DNA of 39,910 nucleotides from Chloroflexota bacterium (GTDB lineage Bacteria > Chloroflexota > Dehalococcoidia > UBA2979), in contig JAQCKI010000004.1 in NCBI GenBank assembly GCA_027592645.1, positions 1 through 39,910 of the forward strand, read 5' to 3'. Below the pieces are notes generated by a model that saw only the letters and a program-made list of their open reading frames with translations, searched no databases and was not told the origin of the DNA. Every line of letters starts with the position of its first letter. Within the stretch, counting starts at the first letter, position 1. Shown here one piece after another: positions 1 to 5,853 of the stretch. A program made the position numbers and the translations under genes.

Positions 1-179
1 TGGCGGCCACGGCCGGCGGTCTGCGCGGCGGCCACGTACGCGCTGCCAACTGGGCGGCCGGCGGCTGCGCCCGCGCGCGCATCGTCCATCGTGGACCCGG
101 TCTCTTCGAGGTGGACGACCTCGGCGCCGACGGTACGGGTGCGACGCAGAGCGTGATAGCGGGCGAGGTCGAACGGCAT
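1..179 (-). CDS. birA: Biotin--[acetyl-CoA-carboxylase] ligase (BirA catalytic domain), N-terminal part, truncated by window edge
   Basis: Manual translation of the minus strand from ATG (cat at 177-179): MPFDLARYHALRRTRTVGAEVVHLEETGSTMDDARAGAAAGRPVGSAYVAAAQTAGRGR; ETGSTxDdA and QTAGRGR are BirA/LplA-fold biotin ligase signatures. Not in the supplied ORF track because it runs off the edge. Confidence 0.88.
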   Translation of the reverse strand, partial: MPFDLARYHALRRTRTVGAEVVHLEETGSTMDDARAGAAAGRPVGSAYVAAAQTAGRGR

Positions 180-246
180 CGGCGGGCTCCGCAGCGCGGT
201 GATGAAGGCGCTTGCGACACTACCGCGATCAGCCCCCGGAAAACGA

Positions 247-276
247 CTGAGGGCGTCGCTTGCGCGACGCCCTCAG
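247..276 (-). terminator. Intrinsic terminator hairpin downstream of the micropeptide ORF
   Basis: Perfect 12-bp stem ctgagggcgtcg / cgacgccctcag with 6-nt loop; on the minus strand followed by TCGTTTT. Confidence 0.7.
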
Positions 277-297
277 CGGATCACTCAGCGGTCGGGG

Positions 298-366
298 CTA
301 GGTTTCGAGCACCTCCTTGAAGATGCGCGACCCCTGAATCTGGTGACCATGACTATCATCAGCCAC
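298..366 (-). CDS. Putative micropeptide MADDSHGHQIQGSRIFKEVLET (22 aa from GTG; 24 aa MLVADDSHGHQIQGSRIFKEVLET if ATG at 370-372 is used)
   Basis: Short ORF with a strong SD (AGGGAGGTGAT, 373-381) 8 nt before the GTG, a promoter upstream and a terminator hairpin downstream; no recognised family. Confidence 0.5.
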   Translation of the reverse strand: MADDSHGHQIQGSRIFKEVLET

Positions 367-392
367 GAGCATCACCTCCCTTCCTGCCGCCG

Positions 393-421
393 AAGGTAGA
401 GAAGTGAAGATCACTTGTCAA
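393..421 (-). promoter_or_regulatory. Sigma70-type promoter with overlapping dyad operator
   Basis: Minus strand TTGACA (416-421), 17-bp spacer, TACCTT (393-398); spacer and -35 edge contain the perfect inverted repeat AAGTGA-TCT-TCACTT (402-416). Confidence 0.6.
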
Positions 422-486: not shown

Positions 487-1842
487 TTATGTCCCGGTCA
501 CTGCCCGCACGGCCGCCCGCGTGGCGTCCACGATCTGCCCGATCTCCGAGGCGTTCACGACCAGCGGCGGCGCGAAGACCACGTGGTCCGCGACGATGCG
601 CGTGATCACCCCGCCCTCCTCGCGCATGTGACGCTGGACGCGGATCGCCGTCTGGGCGCTCGGCTCAAACGTCTCGCCGGTCGTCGCGTCTTTCACCAGC
701 GAGAAGCCCGCCATCAGCCCCAGGTGCCGCAGCTTCGCCACGTTCGGGTGCCCCTCGAGCGCGCCCCGCAGGCCGTCGGCCAGCACTTCGCCCATGACGG
801 CCGCGTTCTCGACCAGACGCTCGTCCTCCATGATCTGCAGGTTGCGGAGGCCCACCGCCGCCGCCGTGGGGTGGCCGCTGTTGGTGTAGGCGTGCATGAA
901 GCGCGCGTCCGTCGGCGCCTGCTTCAACGCCTCGAAGATCTCGGCGGAGACGATGAAGGCGCCCATCGGCACGTAGCCGGAGGTGATCGCCTTCGCGATG
1001 CTTAGGATGTCCGGCTGCACGCCCCAGTGCTCCAGCGCGAACCAGCGCCCGGTACGACCGAAGCCCGTGATCACCTCGTCGGCGATCATCAGCACCTCGT
1101 AGCGGTCGCAGATCTCGCGCAGGCGCGGGAAGTAGTCATCGGACGGCGTCCAGACGCCGCCGGCGCCCTTCACGGGCTCGACGATGATCGCCGCCACGGT
1201 GTCCGGATCCTCGCGCAGGATCGCCTGCTCCATCCAGCAGGCGCACTCCCCGTCCGAGTTCGGCGTGCAGTCGCACTCCAGGTTGTCGGGCTTCTTCGTG
1301 TGGCTGATCTCGGGAGCCAGCGGGCCGAAGTACTTCCAGAACGCCGGCAGGCCGGTCATGGCGGACGCTGCCAGCGTGCCGCCGTGGTACGACCGCTCGC
1401 GCGAGATCAGCTTCACCTTGCCCGGGCGGCCCTGCAGGTTCCAGTAGAACCGCGCCGCCTTTAGCGCACCCTCGTTGGACTCCGACCCGGAGTTCGTGAA
1501 GAACACGCCCTGCATGTTGTCGTAGGCGAGATCGATCACCTTTGAGGCGAGGCGGATCGCCGGGACGTTGCTGAACCCCACGTAGTTGTTGGTGAACGCG
1601 ACCTTCCGCATCTGTTCGGCGGCGGCGTCCGCGAGTTCACCCCGGCCGTGCCCCACGGCCACGTTCCACAGCGAGGCGAGGGCATCGATGTAGCGCTTGC
1701 CCTGCACATCCACCAGCCACACGCCCTGGCCGTGGTCGAATACGACCGGGCGCTCGTGGTCGGGCGCGTAGTACTGAGGGTGAAGCAGGTGCGTCTGATC
1801 CTCGCGTGCCAGCGCTTCGTAGGTGTCGAGGTCGAGAGTCAT
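487..1842 (-). CDS. Class III PLP-dependent aminotransferase (omega-amino acid:pyruvate type)
   Basis: 451 aa; NSGSESNEGALKAAR, IADEVITGFGRTG, and SIAKAITSGYVPMGA (PLP Lys) class III signatures. Confidence 0.93.
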   Translation of the reverse strand: MTLDLDTYEALAREDQTHLLHPQYYAPDHERPVVFDHGQGVWLVDVQGKRYIDALASLWNVAVGHGRGELADAAAEQMRKVAFTNNYVGFSNVPAIRLASKVIDLAYDNMQGVFFTNSGSESNEGALKAARFYWNLQGRPGKVKLISRERSYHGGTLAASAMTGLPAFWKYFGPLAPEISHTKKPDNLECDCTPNSDGECACWMEQAILREDPDTVAAIIVEPVKGAGGVWTPSDDYFPRLREICDRYEVLMIADEVITGFGRTGRWFALEHWGVQPDILSIAKAITSGYVPMGAFIVSAEIFEALKQAPTDARFMHAYTNSGHPTAAAVGLRNLQIMEDERLVENAAVMGEVLADGLRGALEGHPNVAKLRHLGLMAGFSLVKDATTGETFEPSAQTAIRVQRHMREEGGVITRIVADHVVFAPPLVVNASEIGQIVDATRAAVRAVTGT

Positions 1843-2059
1843 GCCGGGCCTCCTCCGCGAGGGCCAGTGTATGTCGGGGCGCGGAGGCGTTCAGCGGACA
1901 GGTCCCGTCCCCGGGGGACTTTCACGTTGCCGGTAACGTCATTCGGTAGCCTACTGGACGAAGCATCGTGCGAGCGCGATGTCTCTTGCCCCGCCCCCGA
2001 CGTCGGACGGTGCCGACGCAACCTGGACGAGGCCCACTGGAACGCCAGAGGGAGGTCCG

Positions 2060-2941
2060 ATGGACGGGGCGGCGCGTTCCCCATCGTCCGAGGAGTCACC
2101 ACACCCGGAGCCGCGACCGGGCGGCCTCCACGCGTTCCATTCGCTCCGGTCGCCCAACTACCGACTGGTCTGGTTCGGGACGCTGTTCTCCTCGTCCGGG
2201 CAGTGGATCCAGCAGGTCACCCTCGGCTGGCTCGCCTACGAGATGACCGGATCCGCGCTCATGCTGGGGGTCGTCAATGGCGTGCGCGCGCTGCCCCTGC
2301 TCTTCCTGGGGCCGCTGGGCGGCGTGGCGGCCGATCAGTTCGACCGTCGCCGCCTGCTGCTGGTCTCCCAGTGGCTCCTCATTGCCATCGCGCTGGGATT
2401 CGCGACGCTGGTGCTCCTCGGCCACGTGGAGGTCTGGCACCTCGTGGTCTTCAATTTCCTCTCCGGCATCGGCTGGGCGATCAACACCCCGGTGCGCCAG
2501 ACACTGGTCTCACAGATCGTGCCGCGTGAGGAGTTGATGAATGCGCTGGCGCTGAACGCCGCCGGATTCAACGCCACGCGGATCGCCGGGCCCGCGCTTG
2601 CCGGACTGATGATCGCCACCTTTGGGCCGGCGGAGAACTTCTACCTCCAGGCGGCCACCTACCTCATCGTCGTGGTGCTGTTCACCCAACTGCGGCTCGG
2701 CCCGCGGACCAGGGCGACCTCGGTCAATATCGGCGCGGGGTTCACCGATGGTGTCCGCTACGTGATGCGGCATCCGACGCTGCGGACACAACTGGCGCTC
2801 GTGCTCCTACCGGTGCTGCTGGCGTGCCGTACACGGCGCTCCTCCCCGTCCTCGCACGGGACACGCTGGGTCGCGGTGCCGGCAGCCTGGGGCTCATGGT
2901 CGCGGCGCCGGGGGGCGGCGCGGTCATCGCGACGATGGTGA
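2060..2941 (+). pseudogene. MFS transporter (MFS_3 / EntS-like), N-terminal part before an apparent frameshift near 2800-2825
   Basis: RBS GGGAGGT then ATG at 2060 (ORF opens at 1979). TM-rich MFS sequence LVWFGTLFSSSGQWIQQVTLGWLAYEMTGSALMLGVVNGVRALPLLFLGPLGG; MFS homology stops at LLPVLLA and continues in the +1 frame. Confidence 0.75.
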
Positions 2942-3330
2942 TCGCCTCGCTCACTGCGATGCGAAGGAAGGGGCTGGTGCTGCTTGCTGCGGTGTTCTGC
3001 CTGGGCGTCTCGCTCGCACTGATCGCGCTGACGCACTCATTCCCGCTGACGATCGCGCTCCTCGTGGTCGCTGGCGGTGCACAGATGACGTACACCACAA
3101 TGAATCAGACAGTGCTGCAACTCACGACACCGCCCGAGTATCGAGGCCGGGTGCTGGGAATCTACATGCTGAACCAGGGGATCTTCCCGCTGGGCAGCGT
3201 CCTGGTCGGACTGCTCACCGACCTGACCGATGTCCACGTGGCGTTCGCGGTGATGGGCTGCACCGTGGCTCTGATCGCCGCCGCCTTCACCTGGCGCGCG
3301 ACGCGCCTGCGGGACCTGGTCGTGTCATAG
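2824..3330 (+). pseudogene. MFS transporter, C-terminal part (continuation of the preceding ORF after frameshift)
   Basis: VPYTALLPVLARDTLGRGAGSLGLMVAAPGGGAVIA... through C-terminal TM helices; overlaps the upstream ORF in another frame. Confidence 0.75.
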
Positions 3331-5462: not shown

Positions 5463-5853
5463 GGGCGCCAGGGGGCCTGTAAGCCGGATTCTGTACCGCG
5501 TCCCGAGCCCAGCCGGGACGCGGCGACGGCCATCCATCTAGGACGGCGGTTGCCCGCCGCCTCCAGCAGCCTACCCGGGGACAGGACGGGCCGCCCGTAT
5601 GTCCCCCTATTTGGCCTTGCTCCGGGTGGGGTTTGCACGGCCGCCGTGTTGCCACGACGCCGGTGCGCTCTTACCGCACCATTTCACCCTTGCCGGGTCG
5701 CCCGAAGGCCCCCGGCGGTATGTTTCTGTTGCACTTTCCGTCGGCTTACGCCGCCCGGCCATTAACCGGCACCCTGCCCTGCGGAGTCCGGACTTTCCTC
5801 CCGCCCTTCCGAAGAAGGACCGGCGACCGTCCAGCCCCCTGGCTGCTTCGAGT
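5463..5853 (-). ncRNA. rnpB: RNase P RNA (bacterial type A)
   Basis: Minus strand has GAGGAAAGTCCGGACTCCGCAGGGCAGGGTGCCGGTTAATGGCCGGGCGGCGTAAGCCGACGGAAAGTGCAACAGAAA...GGGTGAAATGGTGCGGTAAGAGCGCACCGG...CGGGTAGGCTGCTGGAGGC...TACAGAATCCGGCTTACAGGCCCCCTGGCG, including conserved P4/CR-I, CR-IV and CR-V elements. Ends approximate. Confidence 0.96.

Follow-up and report, generated by a model that had tools for sequence, protein, structure and literature searches.

Peptide-leader attenuators, among them the trp, his and ilv leaders and the arrest leaders of the tnaC type, combine a short ORF, a strong Shine-Dalgarno sequence (SD), a close terminator and mutually exclusive helices, often with one gene closely 3'. 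The mini-gene described here, found in the phylum Chloroflexota, resembles them in all of these respects but has no runs of codons for the amino acid of a pathway, no recognised antiterminator that consumes its terminator stem, and a promoter of its own at an autonomous location where the downstream gene varies or is convergent. The mRNAs of hok and other type I toxins are small and stand-alone, with translation gated by long-range pairing of the SD region, features which the mini-gene shares. It differs from them in that the peptide is hydrophilic, lacks a transmembrane segment and is not conserved, and in that a genome usually carries one copy. Comparative screens have also yielded conserved intergenic RNAs that, like the mini-gene, contain a translated short ORF or lie 5' of one, for example Downstream-peptide (Weinberg et al. 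2010, PMC2864571) and the sORF and uORF motifs (PMC6429828). In contrast to these motifs, the conserved structure of the mini-gene is a competition, inside and just after the ORF, between pairing of an anti-SD segment with the first SD (SD1) and pairing of the same segment with a downstream competitor; the mini-gene matches no Rfam family.

The window, the whole stretch of 39,910 nucleotides of Chloroflexota DNA that was analysed, carries the unit on its minus strand at 421-240, comprised of a promoter, a strong SD, a 22-codon ORF and a 13-bp terminator. The earlier note had proposed a complete compact transcription unit between an aminotransferase gene and birA, and the promoter, SD, ORF and terminator were all found at the place it gave, with both neighbours also on the minus strand. 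The -35 hexamer TTGACA (416..421) is retained in both congeners; the -10 hexamer TACCTT (393..398), reached over a 17-nt spacer, is TAGATT at the same place in the congeners L002 and L003. The SD1 core GGAGG (375..379; extended form GGGAGGTGAT, minus-strand context GGGAGGTGATG) is located 8 nt 5' of the start codon of the mini-ORF MADDSHGHQIQGSRIFKEVLET (298..366), which extends from GTG at 366-364 to the stop TAG at 300-298. Two in-frame start candidates had been put forward, ATG 372 for a 24-residue and GTG 366 for a 22-residue product. The ORF is conserved and has the appearance of being translated. Of 117 elements, 82 have their start codon at a distance of 8 nt from GGAGG and the others at 9-11 nt, which makes GTG 366 the likelier start. 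ATG 372 was rejected, relatives mostly starting at the second position, which matches GTG 366. Codons 2-8 (343..363; GCT GAT GAT AGT CAT GGT CAC) are for the most part of the NRY type and T-ending.

The interior of the ORF contains the anti-SD segment UCGCGCAUCUUC (319..330), recognised from the MFE fold and from covariation of its helix with the SD1/start region, P1, across 35 families. P1 is short in the window, 5 bp, with GCAUC (326-322) able to pair with GAUGC (373-369) 3' of SD1. Alternatively, the anti-SD segment (330-319) forms a helix, interrupted by a single mismatch, with GGAGGUGCUCGA (316-305), giving a hairpin of which the 3' arm carries a second SD-like GGAGG (SD2, 312..316), exactly 11 nt 5' of the stop and missing from the earlier note. 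The intrinsic terminator (247..276) consists of 13 perfect pairs, rather than the 12 first counted, closed by a GCAA loop and followed by the tail TCGTTTT (240..246), as had been described. The operator-like dyad AAGTGA-TCT-TCACTT that overlaps the -35 hexamer (402..416, read 416-402) is also present as described, but it is private to the window genome and outside the conserved element. Since it has no counterpart in either congener (L002, L003) it was rejected as a functional part and is probably due to chance. A generic scanner alone did not flag the site.

Outside the unit, the upstream neighbour (487..1842, minus strand) is a class-III aminotransferase gene (Pfam PF00202, E 2e-95), and the downstream neighbour (3..179, minus strand) is the 5' part of birA, identified by tblastn with BirA relatives, encoding a catalytic domain without N-terminal HTH and cut by the window end. 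BirA of the genome G000 matches TIGR00121; the 59-aa fragment encoded in the window, searched alone, gave no Pfam match. Elsewhere in the window, an MFS-type permease gene at 1979-3330 appears to be divided between overlapping frames, one at 1979-2941 and one at 2824-3330, for which a frameshift or an assembly error is the probable cause, and a bacterial RNase P class A RNA lies on the minus strand at 5464-5842 (Rfam, 297 bits).

At the DNA level the unit aligns along most of its extent with each of the two congeners at 84-85% identity (E 7e-52 and 2e-43), and the reading frame is kept in relatives. Among 60 relatives searched with the DNA, the two congeners carry the unit and more distant genera gave fragments of it; a degenerate pattern built on two SD-like motifs recovered it in several families of the class. 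The second motif was required by this first search pattern, an ascertainment to which the birA-anchored set was not subject. By their named genome records the families belong to the Chloroflexota (Tepidiforma, Dehalococcoidia MAGs, RBG_16_68_14). In total, 117 distinct copies were collected under 35 family labels, 34 from Chloroflexota and one from a Bdellovibrionaceae MAG, and a sequence-only model detected the element in 77 of 261 sampled Chloroflexota genomes (E <= 1e-3), mostly as one mini-gene per genome. The cultured thermophile Tepidiforma flava is among the carriers. The architecture is shared by an Ardenticatena MAG (L207), by the one Bdellovibrionaceae MAG (L248) and by members of other Chloroflexota classes. 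In the Bdellovibrionaceae MAG the mini-gene (MDSSYYYQRKTWVEVSTK, L248 5624-5693) is situated between lgt-like and trmH-like genes, an occurrence that may reflect horizontal transfer or a wider distribution. Most of the out-of-phylum matches listed from the pattern scan had no in-frame short ORF of such architecture and were discarded; outside the Dehalococcoidia-type set, only L207 and L248 held up among the matches listed. With cmscan, neither the window nor 29 related loci gave a match to the element at gathering score, the matches in L358 and L360 (Leu_leader and mir families) falling far under the gathering scores and being regarded as chance, and Rfam 15 and the literature searched held no description of it. 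The mini-gene is very probably an autonomous, phylum-wide and previously undescribed element, its identity and anatomy being well supported.

Within the 117 elements the start codons ATG, GTG and TTG interchange (ATG 81, GTG 27, TTG 8, CTG 1) and the stop is TAG in 76, TAA in 28 and TGA in 13, with a C directly 5' of the stop in 94, often as CTAG. The ORF ranges from 14 to 28 codons. In an alignment of 59 sequences GGRGGTG at SD1 is invariant or almost so, and a sigma-70-like promoter was found 5' of SD1 in 59 of the 117 elements against 1.5 expected, in agreement with the promoter proposed for the window; a terminator is present in 79 of the 83 elements of the first set. Codons of the NRY type account for 443 of 581 positions at codons 2-8 versus 218 of 1044 later positions. 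The third base is T in 54% of mini-ORF codons 2-8, compared with 11-12% at codons 2-8 of 455 other genes from the f33, f1 and f20 loci and 21% in 30 f70 genes. These NRY, T-ending codons are accompanied by +2-frame stop codons in 115 of 117 elements. Indels within the ORF of the f33 alignment are multiples of three, and pN/pS in this family is 0.55 in frame versus 0.87 and 0.86 out of frame. The codon signal and the f33 pN/pS values suggest a translated ORF under weak constraint on the peptide.

The earlier note had listed a functional or modified peptide among the possible roles, and a regulatory, secreted or modified micropeptide would be consistent with the frame being kept in all elements, with the weak purifying selection in f33 and with an EV motif close to the C terminus in Dehalococcoidia. 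However, the peptides, hydrophilic in the elements inspected, diverge widely in sequence and in length (14-28 aa), with no residue conserved beyond positions imposed by the RNA. The recurrent residues correspond to RNA elements, E-V to GGAGGTG at SD2, G-I-T to GGCATCACC at the anti-SD segment and D/H/S/R/N/Y to the NRY codons. Neither a Pfam match of the peptide nor recurrent maturation or export genes near the mini-gene were found, the neighbours being birA, aminotransferase, smpB, murE, mreB, greA, recN, GH13 and others. In the great majority of Dehalococcoidia-type elements 11 nt separate the GRGG of SD2 from the stop 3' of it; a few have 8 nt, and f50 has 10. The spacing by itself does not tell a constraint on the peptide from one on the RNA, a change of a single in-frame codon being enough to shift it by 3; the E-to-G changes observed preserve GGRGG and the f50 motif lies in a phase other than that of E-V, and RNA constraint is therefore favoured. 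A purely E-V peptide motif was disfavoured on the same two grounds, and a functional micropeptide is considered very improbable. Three further possibilities were examined. SD2 as a re-initiation site was rejected by eye, with no suitably spaced start codon in the f1 or f33 examples. A likeness of E-V-x-S to the sequence that follows the biotinyl-lysine of biotin carboxyl carriers was also rejected, there being no conserved lysine and GGAGGTG explaining E-V. Lastly, regulatory codons tied to the pathway, as in a peptide-leader attenuator of birA, were not found, codons 2-8 being mostly of the NRY type with no single amino acid repeated.

Two helices were evaluated across families, P1, in which SD1/start pairs with the ORF interior, and P2, in which the ORF interior pairs with the first 55 nt 3' of the stop. 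In an alignment-free test the best helix within an element was compared with that between elements of different families over 20,000 family permutations. For P1 in 35 families the values were 20.8 within versus 17.3 ± 0.41 between (z = 8.7, 0/20,000 permutations), and for P2 24.5 within versus 17.2 ± 0.47 between (z = 15.5, 0/20,000 permutations). The control pairing of SD1 with the post-stop region showed no excess (z = -1.4). Intramolecular gating of an SD calls for a segment complementary to the SD or start in the same RNA, with covariation, and P1 provides both. RNAalifold of 31 f33 sequences proposes a pairing of the SD1-start spacer with the ORF segment 5' of SD2, in which two sequences have C-G replaced by U-A, a double change. 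Compensatory differences are also seen between CCUGC:GCAGG in L064 and CCCAC:GUGGG in L065, and in f112 between GUGCAG:CUGCAC and GUGCAA:UUGCAC. The congeners L002 and L003 form an 8-bp P1 and an SD2 helix of 12-13 bp, and L348 offers a further example of pairing (GGAGGTGATGCGAC:GTCGCATCACCTCC); within Dehalococcoidia the pairing signal of SD2 is modest (66/20,000 permutations). P1 and P2 claim overlapping ORF bases in six families (f110, f138, f148, f144, f105b and f158), and in L358 GGGCATCACTGT is able to pair with GGTGATGCCC at SD1 or with GCGGTGATGCCC after the stop. By eye, the 3' strand of P2 usually ends 5' of the terminator stem. A chance arrangement or an annotation artefact might be entertained on the ground that the individual motifs are short, but conservation, the architecture in 35 families and the covariation refute it, leaving this explanation virtually no probability.

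Several observations were made in the 3' region of particular elements. In L069 and L070 (f20) ORF codons form a perfect helix of 10-12 bp with the 3' region (TCGCCCAACGGA:TCCGTTGGGCGA). CGCCCAG recurs in the loop of the f20 terminator, where it is the complement of the 3' strand of P2, so that an antiterminator arrangement is possible. At about 5120-5400 in L068 (G014) four tandem, near-identical terminator-like hairpins (GGGGCGTCCCACTGCGACGCCCC) lie 3' of the mini-ORF.

The position of birA raises the question of a cis-acting translated leader, also suggested in the earlier note, in which the position of the ribosome on the mini-ORF would set read-through of the terminator into birA. In its favour, birA is 3' on the same strand in 78 of the 83 first-set elements, a set that is partly birA-anchored, at a median gap from the terminator of 33 nt (<25 nt in 25 of 74), and it persists while the upstream genes change between families, from an aminotransferase gene in f1 and f20 (20/24 and 7/8 elements, and in no other family) to smpB in f66, murE in f70 and divergent mreB in f112 and f102. 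Furthermore, many f33 birA genes have neither a -10 box nor an SD. Against it, a leaderless -10 box belongs to birA itself in 14 of 70 genes, versus 1.8 expected. These include 7 of 8 f20 elements (L069-L074, L163), where a TANNNT box is exactly 6 nt before the birA start, a placement which suggests that the f20 birA mRNAs are leaderless. No antiterminator pairing at the expense of the terminator was recognised by eye. The mini-gene elsewhere precedes smpB (f118, f127), greA, recN, surE, aroH or trmH, or faces convergent genes (f105 and f154, and also f122 and f144 as judged by eye from the reverse strand). In G147 (Tepidiformaceae) an intact mini-gene (MDCHSRSYGRTFSLEVTSS) lies 5' of an alpha-amylase-like gene, with birA on a different contig and without a mini-gene there. 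A consistent downstream birA is lacking in G147, f105, f122, f144, f154, f118, f127, Ardenticatena and Bdellovibrionaceae. Since the mini-gene has other or convergent neighbours and is intact in G147, it is autonomous and not simply a birA attenuator; the leader is an unlikely explanation of the element as a whole, although a role for birA in some lineages is possible. Names of neighbouring genes are readings of translated sequences, except where BirA/TIGR00121, Pfam or Rfam (tmRNA) runs were available.

Two side observations concern these neighbours. In f118 the order is mini-gene, smpB, tmRNA (in L335, 354-725 minus, with the mini-gene near 1480-1560 minus; Rfam tmRNA, 134 bits); the mini-gene is also 5' of smpB in f127 and lies between smpB and birA in f66. 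In L117-L140, BirA has an N-terminal HTH and palindromes of the TTAACC/GGTTAAC type are often present 5' of birA, with no mini-gene there; in the lineages with the mini-gene, BirA is without HTH.

The best reading of the element, to which we assign a probability of roughly 0.55, is a translated RNA that gates its own initiation through an internal anti-SD. The autonomous mini-gene would produce a short translated RNA of about 130-180 nt, and a ribosome would load at the strong SD1 and read the 14-28 codons. Once transcribed, the ORF-internal segment would pair with SD1, the start region or both (P1) and close the start site. In Dehalococcoidia, SD2 just 5' of the stop would compete with P1 and could free SD1; in other lineages an SD-like or other complementary stretch just 3' of the stop (P2) would be the competitor. 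Translation of a mini-ORF gated in this way would favour ribosomes that load early, and the ORF would be there to carry ribosomes across the switch, not for the sake of a conserved peptide. When growing transcripts are folded with a partition function (means of 35 families), SD1 is predicted to be 0.62 unpaired initially and 0.34-0.41 once the ORF segment emerges. Prediction and covariation together support self-closing of SD1. In longer or full-length RNA the RNAfold model clearly re-exposes SD1 in only 6 of 35 families; the general rule that full-length RNA exposes SD1 is unsupported and, because of this count, re-opening of SD1, the release half of the switch, is the weaker part of the model.

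By its construction the anti-SD segment, of the GGCAUCACC or CACCUCC type, is a complement of SD sequences, and the gene is autonomous and mostly single in a genome, both of which would also suit an action in trans, the uncovered segment pairing with SD regions of target mRNAs in the manner of an sRNA with a C-rich seed. However, the letters of the segment drift together with the SD1 spacer and P2 of each RNA, as expected for intramolecular pairing and therefore against an action in trans, which appears quite unlikely. Overall, sequence comparison establishes the parts of the element, its reading frame, the two helices and that it is independent of birA. The gating mechanism itself stands at about even odds, and the functional output would be the RNA, or the ribosome traffic on it, instead of the peptide. 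The synteny with birA in many families suggests a functional coupling outside what gating by the internal anti-SD explains.

A broader proposal, which we regard as tentative and on balance doubtful, is that the mini-gene encodes a phylum-wide housekeeping RNA that senses ribosome loading, a mini-mRNA conserved solely for initiation, closed by the anti-SD within its own ORF and re-opened by a competitor further 3'. The state of this RNA would be read out in trans or through the adjacent genes. The mini-gene illustrates how conserved genes are lost to annotation by ORF length, and its RNA is short enough for direct mutagenesis. That a ribosome-facing RNA switch is strongly conserved while its peptide is not suggests that translation in these bacteria is subject to an uncharacterised layer of control.
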